From an uncultured Erysipelotrichaceae bacterium (GTDB lineage Bacteria > Bacillota_I > Bacilli_A > RFN20 > CAG-826): a stretch of 17,494 nt of DNA. Each line of letters starts with the position of its first letter. Within the stretch, counting starts at the first letter, position 1. The notes below the pieces were generated by a model. It ran no database searches. It was not told where the DNA came from and worked only from the letters and a program-made list of their open reading frames with translations. Positions 1,926 through 17,494 of this stretch are shown here, piece after piece. The translations under genes and the position numbers were made by a program. The stretch is from assembly GCA_902799855.1 (NCBI GenBank), contig CADCCA010000035.1:1-17494 (forward strand), in the 5' to 3' direction.

Positions 1926-2003
1926 GGCGGGTGTGGTGAAGAGGCCCAACACACCTGGCTGTGAACCAGGCATTCGTCAGTTCGAATCTGATCACTCGCC
2001 CCA
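1926..2003 (+). tRNA. tRNA-His (anticodon GTG)
   Basis: A cloverleaf can be drawn by hand. The anticodon stem CCTGG/CCAGG encloses the loop CTGTGAA with anticodon GTG, which reads His codons. The T arm is GTCAG-TTCGAAT-CTGAT, and the D arm GTG/CAC has three pairs. The acceptor stem has the extra G(-1) at 1926 pairing with C73 at 2000, the hallmark of tRNA-His. CCA is encoded at 2001-2003. The gene stands alone, with its own promoter and terminator. Confidence 0.95.
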
Positions 2004-2012
2004 AACAAAAAA

Positions 2013-2043
2013 GAATGAACCAATTCGTTGGTTCTTTTTCTTT
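2013..2043 (+). terminator. Terminator of tRNA-His
   Basis: GAACCAA (2017-2023) pairs with TTGGTTC (2028-2034) across a stable TTCG tetraloop, followed by TTTTTCTTT. It lies 14 bases beyond the tRNA CCA end. Confidence 0.85.
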
Positions 2044-2052
2044 ATTTTGTTT

Positions 2053-2058
2053 TACAAT
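2053..2058 (+). promoter_or_regulatory. Candidate -10 box placing transcription start next to the ATG
   Basis: TACAAT ends eight bases before the ATG at 2066. No good -35 is visible; TTGGTT at 2028-2033, inside the tRNA terminator stem, is the nearest but gives a 19-base spacer. If real, the transcript of the following gene would be almost leaderless. That would fit the lack of a ribosome binding site. Confidence 0.3.
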
Positions 2059-2065
2059 ATATGTA

Positions 2066-3208
2066 ATGAAATACGACGCTATCATCAAAGAATCATCTAA
2101 TAATCCAATCGAAGAAGTGAAGATGGTGGATGGTTCAATTATCAAATGCAAAAAAGTTCCTTTGGCGACAGTTGAATCAATGGATACTTTTTTAGTGGGC
2201 GTTAAAAAATCATTAGACCATACTGAAAAAGCGCTCAACTACATTGCGACATGCGGTGATAAAAAGCTCTATGCGGCAGTGGGAGATGCTTCAACCTATT
2301 TAAGAAATAAACAAGGTCATGTCCTATCTTCATCAATTGATGAGAAAGGTAAGATTACTGGTCAACCAGGTTTTAAAGAAATACAAATATCAGAAAAAGG
2401 CGTTAAAGCCGCTACTGGAATGGCTAAAGCAATTCCATGGGTTGCCTTAGCGGTCACTGTGATTGAAGTAGGAACTAACATCATTAAAAATCAAAAAGCC
2501 ATTCAAGCAGAACAAATCGCTTTCTACGATAAACTATCGGAAATCAATGAAGATAACATTAATAATCTCTGGCAAGTCATTAATGACTATACCTTATCTA
2601 GACAAGATGATGCTCATAGAACTGCTGATTTAGTAGTTGTTAAGACCGCTTTTAATGAAGCTAACAACTCATTTAGAAAACTTTCAAAAGAAGCATCGAA
2701 TAATAAGAAGATTAATGACCATTTGGTGTCCGCGATGAAAACCGCGCTAGACGTGTATTCGTTTTCATATCTATTAAACATCATGTATTCCAATGTTGAA
2801 GATTGTTCCGAATACGTTAATAAGGCCTTAGAAGATATTACTGGTAAGACAGAAGTCTTCAACGCTATTTGTGATAAATGCTATAACGAATATATTGAGA
2901 ATAGTAAGAAGCACAATAAACTATTAGAAAACACCCAATACGATAATTCAAATAAGAGCAAGAAAGCGTTAGCAGCGAGAATCGGTGTTGATGTTTTAAC
3001 GGGTGGCTTAGCAGAACTTGGTTCATTAGGTTCGAAACAAGTTGGCAAAAAAGTGCAAAAAGATGACGAAGAAATCATCAAGAAATTAAAAAAGATTAAA
3101 CAAAGCAATAATCCATTCTTAGAAGCCATTAAAAACGCTAATCAAATGCTCCTATTAGAAAAACCAGTATTAAAAGACGACAAATATTTATATTATCAAG
3201 TAGATTAA
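2066..3208 (+). CDS. Unknown helical protein with one central hydrophobic segment
   Basis: A 380-residue protein I do not recognise. The frame is open further upstream to an ATG at 1961, but that start lies inside the tRNA gene and its terminator, so I place the start at 2066 (MKYDAIIKE). No ribosome binding site precedes it. Residues about 115-140 form a hydrophobic, Ala/Val-rich segment (AIPWVALAVTVIEVG). A long helix-forming, Lys/Glu/Asn-rich region follows to about residue 300. A second small Gly/Leu/Val-rich patch, about 307-322 (IGVDVLTGGLAELGSLG), comes next, then a strongly basic tail. One or two hydrophobic hairpins flanked by long amphipathic helices recall membrane-inserting helical proteins, but this is only resemblance. 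It ends one base before the acyltransferase start, so the two are probably translated from one transcript. Confidence 0.7.
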   Translation: MKYDAIIKESSNNPIEEVKMVDGSIIKCKKVPLATVESMDTFLVGVKKSLDHTEKALNYIATCGDKKLYAAVGDASTYLRNKQGHVLSSSIDEKGKITGQPGFKEIQISEKGVKAATGMAKAIPWVALAVTVIEVGTNIIKNQKAIQAEQIAFYDKLSEINEDNINNLWQVINDYTLSRQDDAHRTADLVVVKTAFNEANNSFRKLSKEASNNKKINDHLVSAMKTALDVYSFSYLLNIMYSNVEDCSEYVNKALEDITGKTEVFNAICDKCYNEYIENSKKHNKLLENTQYDNSNKSKKALAARIGVDVLTGGLAELGSLGSKQVGKKVQKDDEEIIKKLKKIKQSNNPFLEAIKNANQMLLLEKPVLKDDKYLYYQVD

Positions 3209-5401: not shown

Positions 5402-5421
5402 CATAGGCGAGGATGATCATT

Positions 5422-5751
5422 ATGAAAGTAGAATTAACTCTCGTCTTAGAAACAACTGAAAAAGCTTATGAAACTCTTGAACGAATAAGAGATGCTGGTT
5501 TCAACGCCACTGTGATGAGCAGCGAATCTTTAAGACACGCGCTTGATTACTATCCAGGTGAACATCACTTCATTAATTTAAGACACATCGAAGAAAAAGA
5601 AACTCTTGAAAGCGTATTATGTCTCTTCGTGATCGACGATAATCGTTTAGAAGAACTTAAATCAGTTATTAGATACTACACTAATAAGTTCCAAGATATT
5701 AAAGGCTTTATGTATTCTCGTCCTATCGATGATTACGAGGGCTCAATCTAA
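5422..5751 (+). CDS. Small PII/ferredoxin-fold-like protein, possible antiporter regulator
   Basis: A 109-residue soluble protein. The order of predicted elements is strand (KVELTLVLE), helix (KAYETLERIRDAG), strand (NATVMSS), a loop of about 20 residues, strand (ESVLCLFVID), helix (LEELKSVIRYYTNK) and strand (IKGFMYSR). This double beta-alpha-beta with a central loop is how PII and PII-like (SbtB, DarA/PstA, CutA) proteins are built. I do not see the classical PII T-loop or signature sequences, so the fold is an inference. The start is 5422 rather than the ATG at 5413, because GAGG at 5409-5412 sits nine bases from 5422 and would touch the earlier ATG. It ends two bases before the antiporter start. 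The antiporter itself has no cytosolic regulatory domain, so a role as its nucleotide-sensing partner is plausible. Confidence 0.72.
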   Translation: MKVELTLVLETTEKAYETLERIRDAGFNATVMSSESLRHALDYYPGEHHFINLRHIEEKETLESVLCLFVIDDNRLEELKSVIRYYTNKFQDIKGFMYSRPIDDYEGSI

Positions 5752-10389: not shown

Positions 10390-11079
10390 ATGAAATTCTT
10401 ATTAACTAATGATGATGGCTATAATAAATTACTCAAATATGGTGACGTCACAATTGTTGCCCCTTTTGAGCACATGTCCGCAAAAAGCGCTTCTATCACA
10501 TTGGGTGATTGGTTAAAAGTTGATCAAATTGATGAACATACCTATGCAGTACATGGCACACCTACAGATTGTGCTTCTTTAGCCTTAGGTGGTTTATTCA
10601 TCGATTGTGACATTGTTGTATCGGGATGTAATAACGGCCCAAATCTTTCATATGATGTTTTATTAAGTGGCACGATTGGTGCCTGTTTTGGAGCGGCAGT
10701 ATTCCGCAAAAAGACTGTTGCTTTCTCCGCGCCATTTGATGATTTTTCTTGTCTCATTGAACACTTTGATGAGATATGGGAATACATAAATAAGTATAAC
10801 CTACTAAGTGAAGAATATGTTTTGAATGTTAATCTTCCTAGAGGGCCATATAAAGGCATCGCCTTAGCTAGACTATTTTATCGTAAAGATCGCTATTATT
10901 ATGATCAAAAAGGCGAGATGTATTACGCTTTAAGAGATACCCAAGAATATTTAGAAATGCCAGAAGACGCTGATTGTCGATTAGTAAAAGAAGGCTATGT
11001 TACTATCACTCCTGTTTCCCGTCTTCCATTTGATGAAAAACAATACGAAGAAATGTTAAAGAAAGTCCAGGATAAATAA
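10390..11079 (+). CDS. SurE-like nucleotidase/phosphatase with a shortened N-terminus
   Basis: A 229-residue member of the SurE family: metal-dependent phosphatases acting on nucleoside 5'/3'-monophosphates. The metal-binding NDDG is at residues 7-10, the VAPFEHMSAKSASIT block follows, and SGCNNGPNLSYDVLLSGTIGA matches the family's Asn-rich NxGxNLGxDVxYSGTV block. HGTPTDC is also typical. One thing stands out. Between NDDG and the next strand (VTIVAP) the family normally has about 22 residues, including an AxGI..L helix; here there are only nine. The gap is in frame, so it looks like a deletion in a working frame rather than a frameshift, but an assembly error cannot be excluded. There is no clear ribosome binding site. 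It overlaps the next gene by one base. Confidence 0.85.
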   Translation: MKFLLTNDDGYNKLLKYGDVTIVAPFEHMSAKSASITLGDWLKVDQIDEHTYAVHGTPTDCASLALGGLFIDCDIVVSGCNNGPNLSYDVLLSGTIGACFGAAVFRKKTVAFSAPFDDFSCLIEHFDEIWEYINKYNLLSEEYVLNVNLPRGPYKGIALARLFYRKDRYYYDQKGEMYYALRDTQEYLEMPEDADCRLVKEGYVTITPVSRLPFDEKQYEEMLKKVQDK

Positions 11080-12230: not shown

Positions 12231-13388
12231 ATGAGATTTACATTAGAAGAAAAAGTTTTAACTCTTTTCATGGAAGGAGAGTTAAATTCTTATAACGCTG
12301 ATAACGTAGAAAAAGAAATCGATGAAACCATTAAAGGTCAGGCTTTCGATAAACTTGTCCTGGATTTTTCACATATTTCTTATATTTCTAGTGCAGGCTT
12401 AAGAATCATTCTTAAGTTAAAACAAAAATACAATGATATTTCCATCGTGGAAACTTCATTAGAAGTTTATGATATCTTCCAAATGACTGGTTTCGCTAAT
12501 ATCATGAACATCAAAAAAGGCTTAAAGCGCATTTACTTAAGTGGTGCAGAAATCGTTGGTGATGGTTATTACTCAACAGTCTATAGAGTGGATAAAGATA
12601 CCATCATCAAAGTCTTTAACCGCGTCAGTGATTCTGAACAAATCGAAAGAGAATTAAAACTTGCTAAACAAGCTTTCGTTTTAGGTATTCCAACTGCCAT
12701 CTCATTCGATATCGTCAAAGTGGATGATGGCAAGTTAGGTGTCCGTTATGAAATGCTTGACTGTATGTCACTTAGAAACGCCATTGTTAATTATCCAGAA
12801 AAAGAAGAAGAATACATTACAAAATACGCTGCTCTTCTTAAGAAGATGAATACCACTGAATGCCTTGATCCAAACATTCCAGATAAAAAGCAAGCCTACA
12901 TCACTAAACTTGGTAAAATTAAACAATTCTTACCAGATGATGTTAACGCTAAACTTCTCAAAATGTTCGAAGCCATTCCAGAAAGAAAAACACTTATCCA
13001 TGGTGATTGCCACTTCAAAAACATTATGGTGCAAAATGGTGAACTTTTATTAATCGATATGGATACCCTTTCTGTTGGTTATCCAATCTTTGAATTAGCA
13101 GCCCTCTACGCTCCTTATGTTGCCTTCAATGAAGATGAACCAGGAAACTCTGAAAGATTCTTCGGTATCTCTGATGAAAAGGCCGCCAAACTATACGATG
13201 AATTACTCAGTCGTTACTTCGATAAAGTCGATGATGCCATTAGAGATAAAATCAAAATCGTGGGGTACGTGCATATGATTCGCTGGACTTCTAACAATGA
13301 TCCAGACAACACTAAGAGATTAAATGGTTGCAAGGAAAGACTATTAAAACTCTTAGAAAAATATGACGACTTAGATATAGGTGCCTAG
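12231..13388 (+). CDS. STAS domain fused to an aminoglycoside-phosphotransferase-like kinase
   Basis: A 385-residue two-domain protein. Residues 1 to about 100 form a STAS domain of the SpoIIAA/RsbV kind; YISSAGLRIIL contains the candidate phospho-acceptor S53/S54. Residues about 105-385 form a kinase of the APH/protein-kinase-like fold. They show a Gly-rich nucleotide loop (GDGYYSTVY), a lysine in TIIKVF, the catalytic loop HGDCHFKN (H257, D259, N264) and the metal motif IDMD (D276, D278). APH-like enzymes phosphorylate small molecules or, rarely, proteins; the substrate cannot be read here. AAGGAG stands five bases before the ATG. The next gene, encoding phosphatase and HATPase domains, starts at the stop codon, so the two form one unit. 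The fusion suggests that STAS phosphorylation, binding and release control the kinase domain. Confidence 0.88.
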   Translation: MRFTLEEKVLTLFMEGELNSYNADNVEKEIDETIKGQAFDKLVLDFSHISYISSAGLRIILKLKQKYNDISIVETSLEVYDIFQMTGFANIMNIKKGLKRIYLSGAEIVGDGYYSTVYRVDKDTIIKVFNRVSDSEQIERELKLAKQAFVLGIPTAISFDIVKVDDGKLGVRYEMLDCMSLRNAIVNYPEKEEEYITKYAALLKKMNTTECLDPNIPDKKQAYITKLGKIKQFLPDDVNAKLLKMFEAIPERKTLIHGDCHFKNIMVQNGELLLIDMDTLSVGYPIFELAALYAPYVAFNEDEPGNSERFFGISDEKAAKLYDELLSRYFDKVDDAIRDKIKIVGYVHMIRWTSNNDPDNTKRLNGCKERLLKLLEKYDDLDIGA

Positions 13389-13389
13389 T

Positions 13390-15276
13390 ATGAGTGAACA
13401 AGAAAGAAATAGGTATTTAGAAGCCTACTATGCTAACGAAGCAGATGCGAATAGGCAGATGTCTTTTGCTAACGTCCTTGCCGCTATTCTCATGCTCGTT
13501 ATTTGGATTTTATATCTCACAAACATCTTCAAAATCAACACCGAAGTAACCCGTGTTATTGTTAACATCTCCTTCCCAGTCGGTATTCTTGTTTTATGTA
13601 GCCCATTAATCTTCGTTTTTGGCTTTCAAGGAAAGCACTTAAGGAAACCAAGTTATAAATATTTCGTTTTAGTTTCATTTGTTGTTGTTATCGCTGGTTT
13701 AAATATCATTTTGCCTAAACATACCGCGATTATGTGGGCGTTATGTATTTTAATGACTAACCATTATTACAACCCGAAGGTTGGTTTATCTATTTTCATT
13801 GCTGTCATTATCTCCTCATTATTCTGCATGTTCTTTAGCATGTTTGTTGGTGAATTCGACGCTAACTTATTATTAGGTAATGATGTTTTAGAAAAAGCTC
13901 CTGATTTCTATGCACAAGGTGTTGAACTATACGCTAAAGGCCCAGTGGCGAGATATGAACTTCTTGTTAAATTACATGAATTAGGATACAACCGTATGGT
14001 TGATTCCCTCCTTTTCTATTTCTTCCCACGCGCTCTTATCTTAAGCTTGGTGTTCTTCGTTTCTTATGGTCTTAACTTACGTACTTATAAGTTATTGGTC
14101 AGTGAAATTCAAGTTAACAGTGAACAAGAAAAGACCAAGACTGAATTAGAAGTTGCTAAAGAAATCCAATTAGCGACATTACCAAGCGAAATTTCTACAT
14201 CAGAGGATATTGAAATCGTTGCTGAATTAAAAGCGGCCAAAGAAGTCGGTGGTGACTTCTATGATTATTTCAAGATTGATGAAGACCATACTGCGATTGT
14301 CGTTGGTGATATTTCTGGTAAAGGTATTCCAGCGGCCATGTTCATGATGAAAACCATCACCTGCTTTAAAAACTTAGTGGCCCCAAATAAATCACCAGCC
14401 CAAATCTTAAGAGAAGTAAACGCTTCTTTATATGACAATAATAATTCCCAAATGTTTGTCACCTGTTTCTTAGCGATTATCAATGAAAAAACTGGTGAAT
14501 TAAAGTTCGCTAACGCCGGACATAACCCACCAATTATCGGAAGTAATCTCAAATTCCGCTATTTAAAATGCAATCCTGGCTTTGTTTTAGGTGGTCTTAA
14601 AGATGCTTTCGTTGTCGATGAATCAATCATGCTTGAAAAAGGCGAAAGCATTACCATTTATACAGATGGTATTACTGAAGCTAGAAACGAAAAAGGTGGC
14701 TTCTATGGCGAAGATAAATTCTTAGATTTCTTCAACAGTAGAGAATTTACCTGTGTCGTTGAAATCCATCATGCTTTAAAAGATGATTTAGCCAAATTTA
14801 CCGAAGGCTTTGATCAAAGCGATGATATTACTGTCATGACTCTCCAATATAGTGGTGATGAATGCTTCTATTTAGAAAAGAGTTTCGACGCTAAACTTGA
14901 AAACATCCAAGATGGTTTAAATACAATTGAAGAATTCTGTGACAAACATCAAGTCAATATGGAATTCAAACTCAACTTATTAATCGTCGCTGATGAACTT
15001 TATTCAAATATCGTGAAATACGGTTATGAGAATAATGGTGGCGAAGTATTTACACGTTTATTATTTAACAAAGATAAAAATGAATTCGTTTTAACCGTCA
15101 TTGACCGCGCTCCAGCGTTCAATCAGTTAGACATTAACAATTCTCCACTTGTTGGCGAAGCCAAAGATAACAAGATTGGTGGCTTAGGCATCTTAATCGT
15201 TAAAAAGATTATGTCAGAATATGCCTATGACAGAATTAACGGTAAAAACATTCTCGTTCTCAGAAAGAAATTCTAG
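13390..15276 (+). CDS. Membrane SpoIIE-type PP2C phosphatase fused to an RsbW/SpoIIAB-type kinase
   Basis: A 628-residue protein with three parts. Residues about 20-235 hold six hydrophobic helices, likely the sensor. A short coiled linker (to about 262) leads into an RsbU/SpoIIE PP2C phosphatase, about residues 270-485, with metal aspartates D289 (VGGDFYD), D307 (GDISGKG), D426 (YTDGITEA) and D478/D479 (SDDITVM). Residues about 500-628 form a GHKL ATPase/kinase domain with E536-x3-N540 in the N box (ADELYSNIVKYGYE), DRAPAF as the G1 box and GGLGILI as the G2 box. The phosphatase should dephosphorylate a STAS partner and the kinase should phosphorylate one; the STAS protein directly upstream is the obvious candidate. 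I place the start at the ATG at 13390, because AGGTG at 13379-13383 fits it. A GTG at 13381 would add three residues and overlap the previous gene by eight bases. Confidence 0.92.
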   Translation: MSEQERNRYLEAYYANEADANRQMSFANVLAAILMLVIWILYLTNIFKINTEVTRVIVNISFPVGILVLCSPLIFVFGFQGKHLRKPSYKYFVLVSFVVVIAGLNIILPKHTAIMWALCILMTNHYYNPKVGLSIFIAVIISSLFCMFFSMFVGEFDANLLLGNDVLEKAPDFYAQGVELYAKGPVARYELLVKLHELGYNRMVDSLLFYFFPRALILSLVFFVSYGLNLRTYKLLVSEIQVNSEQEKTKTELEVAKEIQLATLPSEISTSEDIEIVAELKAAKEVGGDFYDYFKIDEDHTAIVVGDISGKGIPAAMFMMKTITCFKNLVAPNKSPAQILREVNASLYDNNNSQMFVTCFLAIINEKTGELKFANAGHNPPIIGSNLKFRYLKCNPGFVLGGLKDAFVVDESIMLEKGESITIYTDGITEARNEKGGFYGEDKFLDFFNSREFTCVVEIHHALKDDLAKFTEGFDQSDDITVMTLQYSGDECFYLEKSFDAKLENIQDGLNTIEEFCDKHQVNMEFKLNLLIVADELYSNIVKYGYENNGGEVFTRLLFNKDKNEFVLTVIDRAPAFNQLDINNSPLVGEAKDNKIGGLGILIVKKIMSEYAYDRINGKNILVLRKKF

Positions 15277-16382: not shown

Positions 16383-17494
16383 TTAACGAATTGGTTTCCC
16401 ATCAATTACCGATAAATTCTTACCGTTTCTTTTAGCGAGATATAAACTTTCATCCGCGGTCTTAATCACTTCGTTAAAGTCCTTAATTGTATCAATATTA
16501 ACGAATGAGCCGCCGATAGAAATAGTGACGTAATTATAAGGCGCTCCTTTAGGAGCATCTATCTTCAAAGATAGGACTGCTAATCTAAGTTTTTCAATAA
16601 TAGCGCTAGCTTCTTCAAACGTCTCAGCGGATTGGATTAATAAGAACTCTTCTCCGCCATAACGATAGAATTCTAACGCAGGAGATGGGAATGTCTTTCT
16701 CACACAATCTGCAATAGCTTTTAGGCAATAGTCTCCACCGATATGCGAGTATTGGTCGTTATATTGTTTAAAGTTATCAATATCAAACATCATCACTAAT
16801 AAATTAGAGTCATTATTTTCTATTGAGTTCTTGGAATATTTTTCAATGGCATCTTTTAATGCATAACGGTTTCTACAAAGAGTTAATTCATCATATGTCG
16901 CGGTATTATAAAGCGCTTCATTTCTCAGTTCTTCGCAGTATCTTTGTGTTTCAGCATAGAAAAGAATGGAGACGATAAGGTATGAAACAACAGGAAGGAA
17001 GACTGCAACAAATGTATAATACATGAGTCCTTGCATGTCATAAGCACTGGTGAAGTAAATGGATAAACCAATTAAACCAAAGGAAAGAATACCATCAAGC
17101 ACAATGGCTTCAATCCAGAAAACGGGTTGAATTAAAAGGAATAATGGAATTAAAGCAATTGATGGAGAAAGAGTTGGAGAAACTGACAAGAAGCCTTGTT
17201 TCAAATCAGCGTAAAATGATAGGAAGAAATAAACAATCATCGCTGAAAAGACTAAGACATTAGATACATGTCCAAATCCGTTTTTAATGTGTTCCTTTTT
17301 AGAGAACGTCGAAACAAGACCAAAGATAATTGCGCAGATCGTACCAGTGATGGAAATAATCTGTCCTAAGACAGAAGGTAAACCATATACTTCAACCTGG
17401 TTCCAATTGGTTTCAGCGCCCATAGAAAATAAGGCAATTAAATTGATTAATAAAACTAAAACCGCTGTTACTAAAGAAGAAATACGGATTTTGT
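16383..17494 (-). CDS. Membrane GGDEF (diguanylate cyclase) protein, 5' end beyond the window
   Basis: A probable diguanylate cyclase, making the second messenger c-di-GMP from two GTP. The C-terminal catalytic domain shows DELTLCRNRYAL, the metal site FDIDNFKQYND, the active loop RYGGEEF and SIGGSFV. The residues five places before the loop (SPAL) do not form RxxD, so the usual product-inhibition site is absent. The N-terminal part has five or six hydrophobic helices of no recognised sensor family. The ATG at 17421-17423 has no ribosome binding site. The frame stays open from there to the window edge and encodes a further hydrophobic helix (LVTAVLVLLINLIALFSM), so the true start lies outside and the gene is partial. 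It converges on the aldolase gene. Confidence 0.9.
   Translation of the reverse strand, partial: KIRISSLVTAVLVLLINLIALFSMGAETNWNQVEVYGLPSVLGQIISITGTICAIIFGLVSTFSKKEHIKNGFGHVSNVLVFSAMIVYFFLSFYADLKQGFLSVSPTLSPSIALIPLFLLIQPVFWIEAIVLDGILSFGLIGLSIYFTSAYDMQGLMYYTFVAVFLPVVSYLIVSILFYAETQRYCEELRNEALYNTATYDELTLCRNRYALKDAIEKYSKNSIENNDSNLLVMMFDIDNFKQYNDQYSHIGGDYCLKAIADCVRKTFPSPALEFYRYGGEEFLLIQSAETFEEASAIIEKLRLAVLSLKIDAPKGAPYNYVTISIGGSFVNIDTIKDFNEVIKTADESLYLAKRNGKNLSVIDGKPIR

Follow-up and report, generated by a model that had tools for sequence, protein, structure and literature searches.

An APH-fold kinase as the candidate client of a partner-switching gene pair in an uncultured Erysipelotrichaceae bacterium

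The sigma-B and sigma-F circuits of Bacillus subtilis, RsbU/RsbV/RsbW and SpoIIE/SpoIIAA/SpoIIAB, combine the same three activities as the gene pair described here, which lies in a 17,494-nucleotide stretch of DNA from an uncultured Erysipelotrichaceae bacterium (contig CADCCA010000035.1; the whole stretch is called the window below). The pair differs from both circuits in that phosphatase and kinase share one membrane protein, the STAS domain is fused to an APH-fold kinase, and no sigma-factor gene is seen nearby. On account of the domains, the intact catalytic and acceptor residues, the recurrent linkage of the two genes and the fusions found in relatives, we favor, with moderate confidence, the reading that the pair is a partner switch with an APH-fold kinase of small molecules or of proteins, and not a sigma factor, as its client.

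Several partner switches that act on enzymes have been described (what is said here of papers given by PMC number holds for the parts of them that were available). In Pseudomonas aeruginosa, unphosphorylated SiaC activates SiaD by contact, which is prevented by phosphorylation of SiaC (PMC8457831). The SiaA/SiaB/SiaC/SiaD system resembles the window pair in its PP2C phosphatase, SiaA, and in having an enzyme that is switched by contact, but its output SiaD, a diguanylate cyclase, and its kinase SiaB are proteins of their own, and SiaC is a DUF1987 protein, structurally related to STAS (PMC8457831). Two STAS proteins, HsbA and BgrV of Sinorhizobium meliloti, regulate HsbD and BgrR, respectively (PMC8457831, PMC5085249). 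As is predicted for the window pair, HsbR of P. aeruginosa is both kinase and phosphatase for an enzyme-contacting STAS protein (PMC5085249), whereas the diguanylate cyclase of the Hsb system is not fused to STAS, and HsbA has a further target in the anti-sigma factor FlgM (PMC5085249). Another example is SypE of Vibrio fischeri, a kinase and phosphatase with the STAS protein SypA downstream; unlike the window protein, it carries a REC domain in place of the membrane region, and SypA has a single domain (PMC10120452). The target of SypA is given as still unidentified in a review of STAS-only proteins (PMC8256260). How PP2C phosphatases recognize their STAS substrates is the subject of a further paper (PMC11418112). 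RsbU and RsbW domains are also found together in one PDB entry, that of Rv1364c (3ke6, by its title).

Sigma-independent enzyme outputs of partner switches are therefore already known (SiaC-SiaD, HsbA-HsbD), and these precedents of STAS-type proteins switching enzymes by contact support an APH kinase as the client. Nor is it new that a single protein unites a phosphatase with a STAS kinase, as is the case in HsbR, SypE and Rv1364c, the last of which we take not to be an APH protein. No description of a STAS-APH fusion, or of an APH kinase as the output of a partner switch, was found in our searches of the open-licence literature, nor was a paper naming the family TIGR02172. The APH domains treated in the available parts of PMC2877116 are joined to Ser/Thr protein kinases and not to STAS, and those parts of PMC1262709 that were available do not show a STAS-APH fusion.

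The two proteins and their conserved residues

The first gene of the pair (positions 12231 to 13388; like all features of the pair, on the + strand) was delimited by its open reading frame (ORF) and by Pfam and encodes 385 amino acids (aa). Its STAS domain (12249 to 12521, residues 7-97) matches PF01740 with E 4e-15, over the Pfam cut-off, and is followed by the APH-fold kinase domain (12537 to 13370, residues 103-380), in which the PF01636 match covers residues 108-295 (E 5e-14, 53.2 bits against a cut-off of 23.2). In the STAS domain, the serines of an ISSAGL motif, S53 and S54, lie at 12387 to 12392. S54, and not S53, aligns with the first serine of the DSSGL motif of SpoIIAA, which we take to be its phosphorylated Ser58, and S54 is the predicted phospho-acceptor. 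The APH domain has its catalytic loop, HGDCHFKN, at 12999 to 13022 (residues 257-264) and its metal-binding motif, IDMD, at 13053 to 13064 (residues 275-278).

The conservation of these residues was followed in 98 distinct STAS-APH open frames, frames with the same 250 residues being counted once and the window excluded. One set of 33 loci contributed to them with 25 (the other eight encode STAS but no APH), and the rest were taken from genomes of the order and class to which the window belongs; split or partial matches (G142, G122, G213, G020 and G193) were left out. S54 is a serine in all 98, including 28 frames that are not linked to a SpoIIE/HATPase gene, and S53 is a serine in 93 and a threonine in five. 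K127, E141, H257, D259, N264 and D276 of the APH domain are likewise invariant (98/98), and D278 is Asp in 94 frames and Glu in four.

The STAS part of an AlphaFold2 model of the protein (mean predicted local distance difference test, pLDDT, 93.1; predicted template modeling score, pTM, 0.80) fits the fold of SpoIIAA in solved structures. According to the comparison with solved folds, the APH fold is common to choline, fructosamine and aminoglycoside kinases. A sequence search of the PDB lists STAS proteins and hygromycin kinases, with no listed entry spanning both domains. Among the NCBIfam models, TIGR02172 is the best match of the APH part, with a score of 102.3 bits that is far below its curated cut-off of 228.2; the STAS part stays below the cut-off of the SpoIIAA equivalog TIGR02886 (51.6 bits, cut-off 114.75) and exceeds that of the superfamily TIGR00377 (61.1 bits, cut-off 53.45).

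The second gene (13390 to 15276) encodes 628 aa from the ATG at 13390, or 631 aa if a GTG at 13381 is used. The ATG, one base past the STAS-APH stop codon, is probably the start: among the 61 adjacent pairs of relatives, 37 have a gap of 1-3 bases, and the databases contain an identical protein that is 628 aa long. The N-terminal membrane region (13453 to 14067), with about five hydrophobic segments by hydropathy and model helices, has no Pfam match and is a probable sensor. A long helix is listed between these segments and the SpoIIE/PP2C phosphatase domain (14278 to 14847, residues 300-489 in the GTG numbering, E 4.5e-49), after which comes the HATPase_c_2 kinase domain of the RsbW/SpoIIAB type (14887 to 15267, residues 503-629, E 5e-17). 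The PP2C domain contains the conserved aspartates of the SpoIIE/RsbU type, presumably metal ligands, and the HATPase domain has the N-box Glu/Asn and the glycine boxes of the RsbW/SpoIIAB type intact, residues that we take to have the functional roles assigned to these boxes.

In the model of this protein (mean pLDDT 82.5, pTM 0.53), the HATPase part fits SpoIIAB, so that STAS and HATPase correspond to the two halves of the solved SpoIIAA-SpoIIAB complex. The best structural match of the whole model is SiaA (6k4e), the fold matches being mostly to the PP2C domain and saying little about the membrane region, and both the SpoIIE equivalog TIGR02865 (29.3 bits, cut-off 490.8) and the SiaA model NF038263 (52.1, cut-off 700) remain below their cut-offs. 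Two statements of the sequence-only reading agree with these results, namely that STAS is fused to a complete APH-fold kinase with both motifs intact, and that phosphatase and kinase, here SpoIIE and HATPase_c_2 behind the hydrophobic segments, share one membrane protein.

Linkage and single-chain fusions

A SpoIIE/HATPase gene directly adjoins STAS-APH in 61 of the 98 cases, downstream in 49 and upstream in 12, with gaps of -25 to +39 bp and hence in two gene orders. A neighbor was counted as adjacent if it matched any membrane, PP2C or HATPase profile, contigs that end inside the SpoIIE gene were counted as linked by their membrane or PP2C part, and two of the adjacent neighbors (L003- and L114-type) have PP2C without HATPase. 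The flanks of loci L034-L063 are about 1.5 kb long, and the longer locus was taken where a gene had been fetched twice. In a further six cases, the SpoIIE/HATPase gene is at most three genes away on the strand of STAS-APH, one case is a fusion, and two stand at a contig end. Since the pairing recurs in relatives and both window proteins have at least 120 matches each with intact domain make-up and at least 66% identity, the pairing of the genes is not due to chance.

At the level of genomes, full-length STAS-APH was counted by eye in 68 of 279 genomes of the order. A HATPase_c_2 match (E 1e-6) occurs in 64 of these 68 and in 63 of the 211 others (Fisher p 2e-22, uncorrected for genome relatedness and with a contribution of the linkage itself), and in three of the four misses (G024, G088 and G192) the SpoIIE gene is cut by the contig end. 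In the tree, the smallest well-supported set that contains the window, beyond its triplet, has 27 rows, 21 of them with the SpoIIE gene downstream, four with none, one at a contig end and one with the gene upstream. The downstream label changes 11 times on the tree, versus 37.3 times in shuffles.

The strongest sign that HATPase and STAS-APH act on each other is, in our view, that they are fused in opposite orders. Locus L108 encodes HATPase, STAS and APH in one chain of 525 aa (Pfam E 6e-16, 2e-15 and 5e-10). The best 120 matches of a search with this protein comprise 105 with the order STAS-APH-HATPase, 14 STAS-APH proteins and L108 itself. In the tree, the nine STAS-APH-HATPase proteins that were sampled group as a single clade with support 99, apart from L108. 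Searches with STAS-APH and with L108 gave thousands of matches each, of which the best 120 per search were listed, and the architecture may vary among the rest. Where the sources name such proteins, the name is either "anti-sigma factor antagonist", as for three-domain proteins of Mogibacterium and Lachnospiraceae and for STAS-APH of a Clostridia metagenome-assembled genome (MAG), or TIGR02172, as for three listed STAS-APH-HATPase relatives.

Candidate clients of the switch

By analogy with the SpoIIAA-SpoIIAB pair, we infer that STAS phosphorylation gates the APH kinase. The membrane region would sense a signal and bias the SpoIIE-HATPase protein between kinase and phosphatase action, with the HATPase domain phosphorylating S54 of STAS and the PP2C domain taking the phosphate off. 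The HATPase domain may clamp unphosphorylated STAS, as SpoIIAB clamps SpoIIAA, and thereby keep the APH kinase that is fused to it in one of its activity states, which we guess to be the inactive one. The clamp would be released by phosphorylation of S54 or, where one is encoded, by a competing free STAS protein, and the APH domain would phosphorylate its substrate as the direct output. Such a sigma-independent, direct output had been proposed from the sequence alone; the architecture, the catalytic residues, which are intact in all three enzymes, the linkage and the two fusion orders speak for it, but it is not the first enzyme output of this kind.

Several observations weigh against an APH kinase as the client. 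The pTM of 0.80 of the STAS-APH model is no proof of communication between the two domains. In 28 of the 98 cases, no SpoIIE/HATPase gene lies within three genes of STAS-APH; in three of these, it is found farther off (four genes away in L084 and L121, nine in L115), and in eight the flank is shorter than 3 kb. The expectation that STAS-APH always neighbors a SpoIIE-HATPase gene is borne out for the 61 adjacent cases and, within three genes, not for these 28. G071, which encodes STAS-APH, lacks a HATPase_c_2 match at E 1e-6 and is a true miss, and full-length STAS-APH is rare in wider samples (17 of 395 class genomes and 10 of 392 phylum genomes, both samples including members of the order). 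In a search of seven HD proteins, the STAS-like middle part of five HD-APH proteins, which are encoded beside alarmone-type genes (see below), scored weakly (E 2e-4 to 0.13) and has no serine where it aligns. With regard to sigma factors, at least two sigma70 region-2 matches are present somewhere in 42 of 58 draft genomes with STAS-APH, and the absence in these 58 of any such match within 5 kb of STAS-APH on the same contig is a soft negative, because many contigs end before 5 kb.

Among the alternatives, competition fares best, although we regard it as unlikely: a free STAS protein would be the phospho-switch, and the fused STAS would merely dock. Where SpoIIE follows STAS-APH, 17 of the 49 loci have a free STAS gene immediately upstream of the fusion gene; where SpoIIE precedes it, five of the 12 have one two genes upstream. 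The three-domain fusion gene of L108 also adjoins a free STAS gene. S54 is retained in every one of the 48 distinct free STAS sequences that were gathered, and the HD-APH proteins with the serine-less STAS-like part adjoin an intact free STAS, as would be expected if the free protein were the switch. A pure docking domain, however, would not need the serine that is invariant in STAS-APH. In addition, in 32 of the 49 cases with a downstream SpoIIE gene, some of which have short flanks, neither of the two positions ahead of STAS-APH is taken by a STAS gene, and the window belongs to this type. The term "two-protein" circuit, which the sequence-only reading had used, does not hold in general, given the free STAS genes and the 28 cases with no SpoIIE/HATPase gene within three genes.

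A sigma circuit in disguise appears distinctly unlikely. Here, the HATPase would be an anti-sigma factor for RpoD or for an unlinked sigma factor, STAS its antagonist, and APH an accessory that adjusts STAS or modifies another target. The HATPase relatives of known structure, SpoIIAB and RsbW, are indeed anti-sigma factors, two or more sigma70 matches occur in the 42 genomes mentioned above, and in Chlamydia the main sigma subunit is reported to be controlled by a switch-protein kinase network (PMC4552016, in the part available). On the other side stands the absence of nearby matches in the 58 genomes, 55 of which have a sigma70 match and 56 the linked pair (G015 and G112 have unlinked STAS-APH only). 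By distances read by eye between coordinate lists, the nearest matches are one of RpoD size in G008, 5.2 kb from the pair, one in G005, 8.6 kb from the pair and 6.0 kb from a second STAS-APH, and a fragment in G188, 8.7 kb from the pair and 5.2 kb from a second STAS-APH. A control is provided by a stand-alone SpoIIAB-like HATPase of G008 (154 aa), which is separated by 112 bp from a sigma match. In the first 16 genomes, 51 HATPase_c_2 matches exceed the cut-off, and no other of them has a sigma match within 5 kb. Moreover, 12 of the 58 genomes (G002, G009, G079, G121, G129, G144, G169, G178, G208, G215, G216 and G218) have a single sigma70 match, in a frame of RpoD size (422-464 aa). In the window, no sigma-factor domain was detected by Pfam among the other genes scanned, and the earlier statement that no sigma factor is nearby holds for these genes and, as far as the contigs reach, for the 5 kb around STAS-APH in the 58 draft genomes.

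That the pair is a mere operon convenience, with APH as a housekeeping metabolite kinase and STAS as a localization or folding module only, could account for the 28 unlinked cases and for the mostly housekeeping neighbors in the window, but it is highly improbable in view of the two gene orders, the two fusion orders, the co-occurrence across genomes and the invariant acceptor serine.

Related modules and neighboring genes

The free-STAS loci and two genomes in which the halves are kept apart lead us to regard the window pair as the short version of a module that in other places comprises two STAS proteins and a single kinase/phosphatase. In G001 and G003, C39-ABC-type genes stand with STAS and SpoIIE-HATPase (L031 and L033), and STAS-APH is located elsewhere (L001 and L004). 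A complete run is present at L007:1734-11327, with genes for a radical-SAM/SPASM protein, a 130-aa protein, a C39-peptidase ABC exporter, a second ABC protein, STAS, STAS-APH and the membrane SpoIIE-HATPase protein, which looks like an operon for peptide maturation and export with a partner switch. By our own profiles, a similar export run occurs in L010, L014, L017, L022 and L024, and parts of it in other loci; Pfam confirmation was obtained for L007. The export-type run of L032 gave no radical-SAM match in the own-profile scan. In L026:6506-8773 and L027:683-1512, the gene after STAS encodes a HATPase that stands alone (151 aa), in the former with a radical-SAM/SPASM gene directly upstream, and the sigma70 region-2 scan lists no match on these two contigs. 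A split module is encoded on one strand at L122:4098-6789, consisting of APH alone (315 aa), STAS (102 aa), a 134-aa protein and a PP2C-HATPase protein.

Alarmone-type genes accompany the APH kinase in two arrangements, which is a lead and not a result. The first, in L119 (2125-7113), L120, L131 and L132, has STAS, the membrane SpoIIE-HATPase protein, a RelA_SpoT-type protein and an HD-(STAS-like)-APH protein. Pfam supports it in L119 (PF04607, E 4e-20; PF13328 HD_4, E 3e-14), and the other three were assigned by similarity to L119. L133, a 3.3-kb contig, has STAS, RelA-type and HD-APH genes, the SpoIIE gene being absent; its HD-APH protein matches HD_4 with E 8e-20. In the second arrangement, at L140:4995-9164, STAS, PP2C-HATPase, a stand-alone HD_4 protein (E 7e-22) and STAS-APH follow each other. 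The HD_4 family presumably covers RelA/MESH1-type hydrolases. No alarmone-type gene is found near the window pair. A wider view, which we put forward tentatively and hold to be rather doubtful, is that of a large class of partner switches, not described in any work that we found, with a built-in kinase of the APH fold whose substrate is nucleotide-like or another small metabolite, in one branch of which a membrane sensor, via STAS phosphorylation, would directly set a metabolite kinase, a RelA/SpoT-type synthetase and a MESH1-type hydrolase, with no transcription factor in between.

The neighbors of the pair in the window encode, according to Pfam, an M18 peptidase, an acyltransferase, CobW, a Na/H exchanger, Fic, EF-G-like, SurE, spermidine-synthase-like, class II aldolase and GGDEF proteins. 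The nearest relatives, L001 and L002, are from rumen Bacilli MAGs, with STAS-APH 77% and 76% identical to that of the window, and in both the gene order is conserved over the whole stretch that begins with the EF-G-like gene, includes the pair and ends with the aldolase. The GGDEF gene (16383 to 17423) lies on the opposite strand past the aldolase, and its counterpart at the same place in L002 is 68% identical over the match. The SurE protein (10390 to 11079) has 229 aa, whereas that of L001 has 238 aa and that of L002 has 239 aa. Ahead of the Na/H exchanger, two ORFs (1961 to 3208, 415 aa; 5413 to 5751, 112 aa) are without a Pfam match. In the search for anti-phage defense, neither protein of the pair had a PADLOC match at E 0.01. 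Promoter-like sites number 11, against 13.2 expected (standard deviation 4.2), and terminator-like sites four, against 2.1 expected (standard deviation 1.5), so that neither kind of site is informative.

STAS-APH and STAS-APH-HATPase proteins appear to be common, judged by the thousands of search matches, and the label "anti-sigma factor antagonist" steers readers to a sigma factor, which is probably not the target. The single-chain STAS-APH-HATPase proteins make the proposed mechanism testable in one purified protein. If an APH-fold kinase is indeed the client, phosphoserine partner switching would be a more general gate for enzymes, here for kinases with the fold known from antibiotic resistance and choline metabolism.

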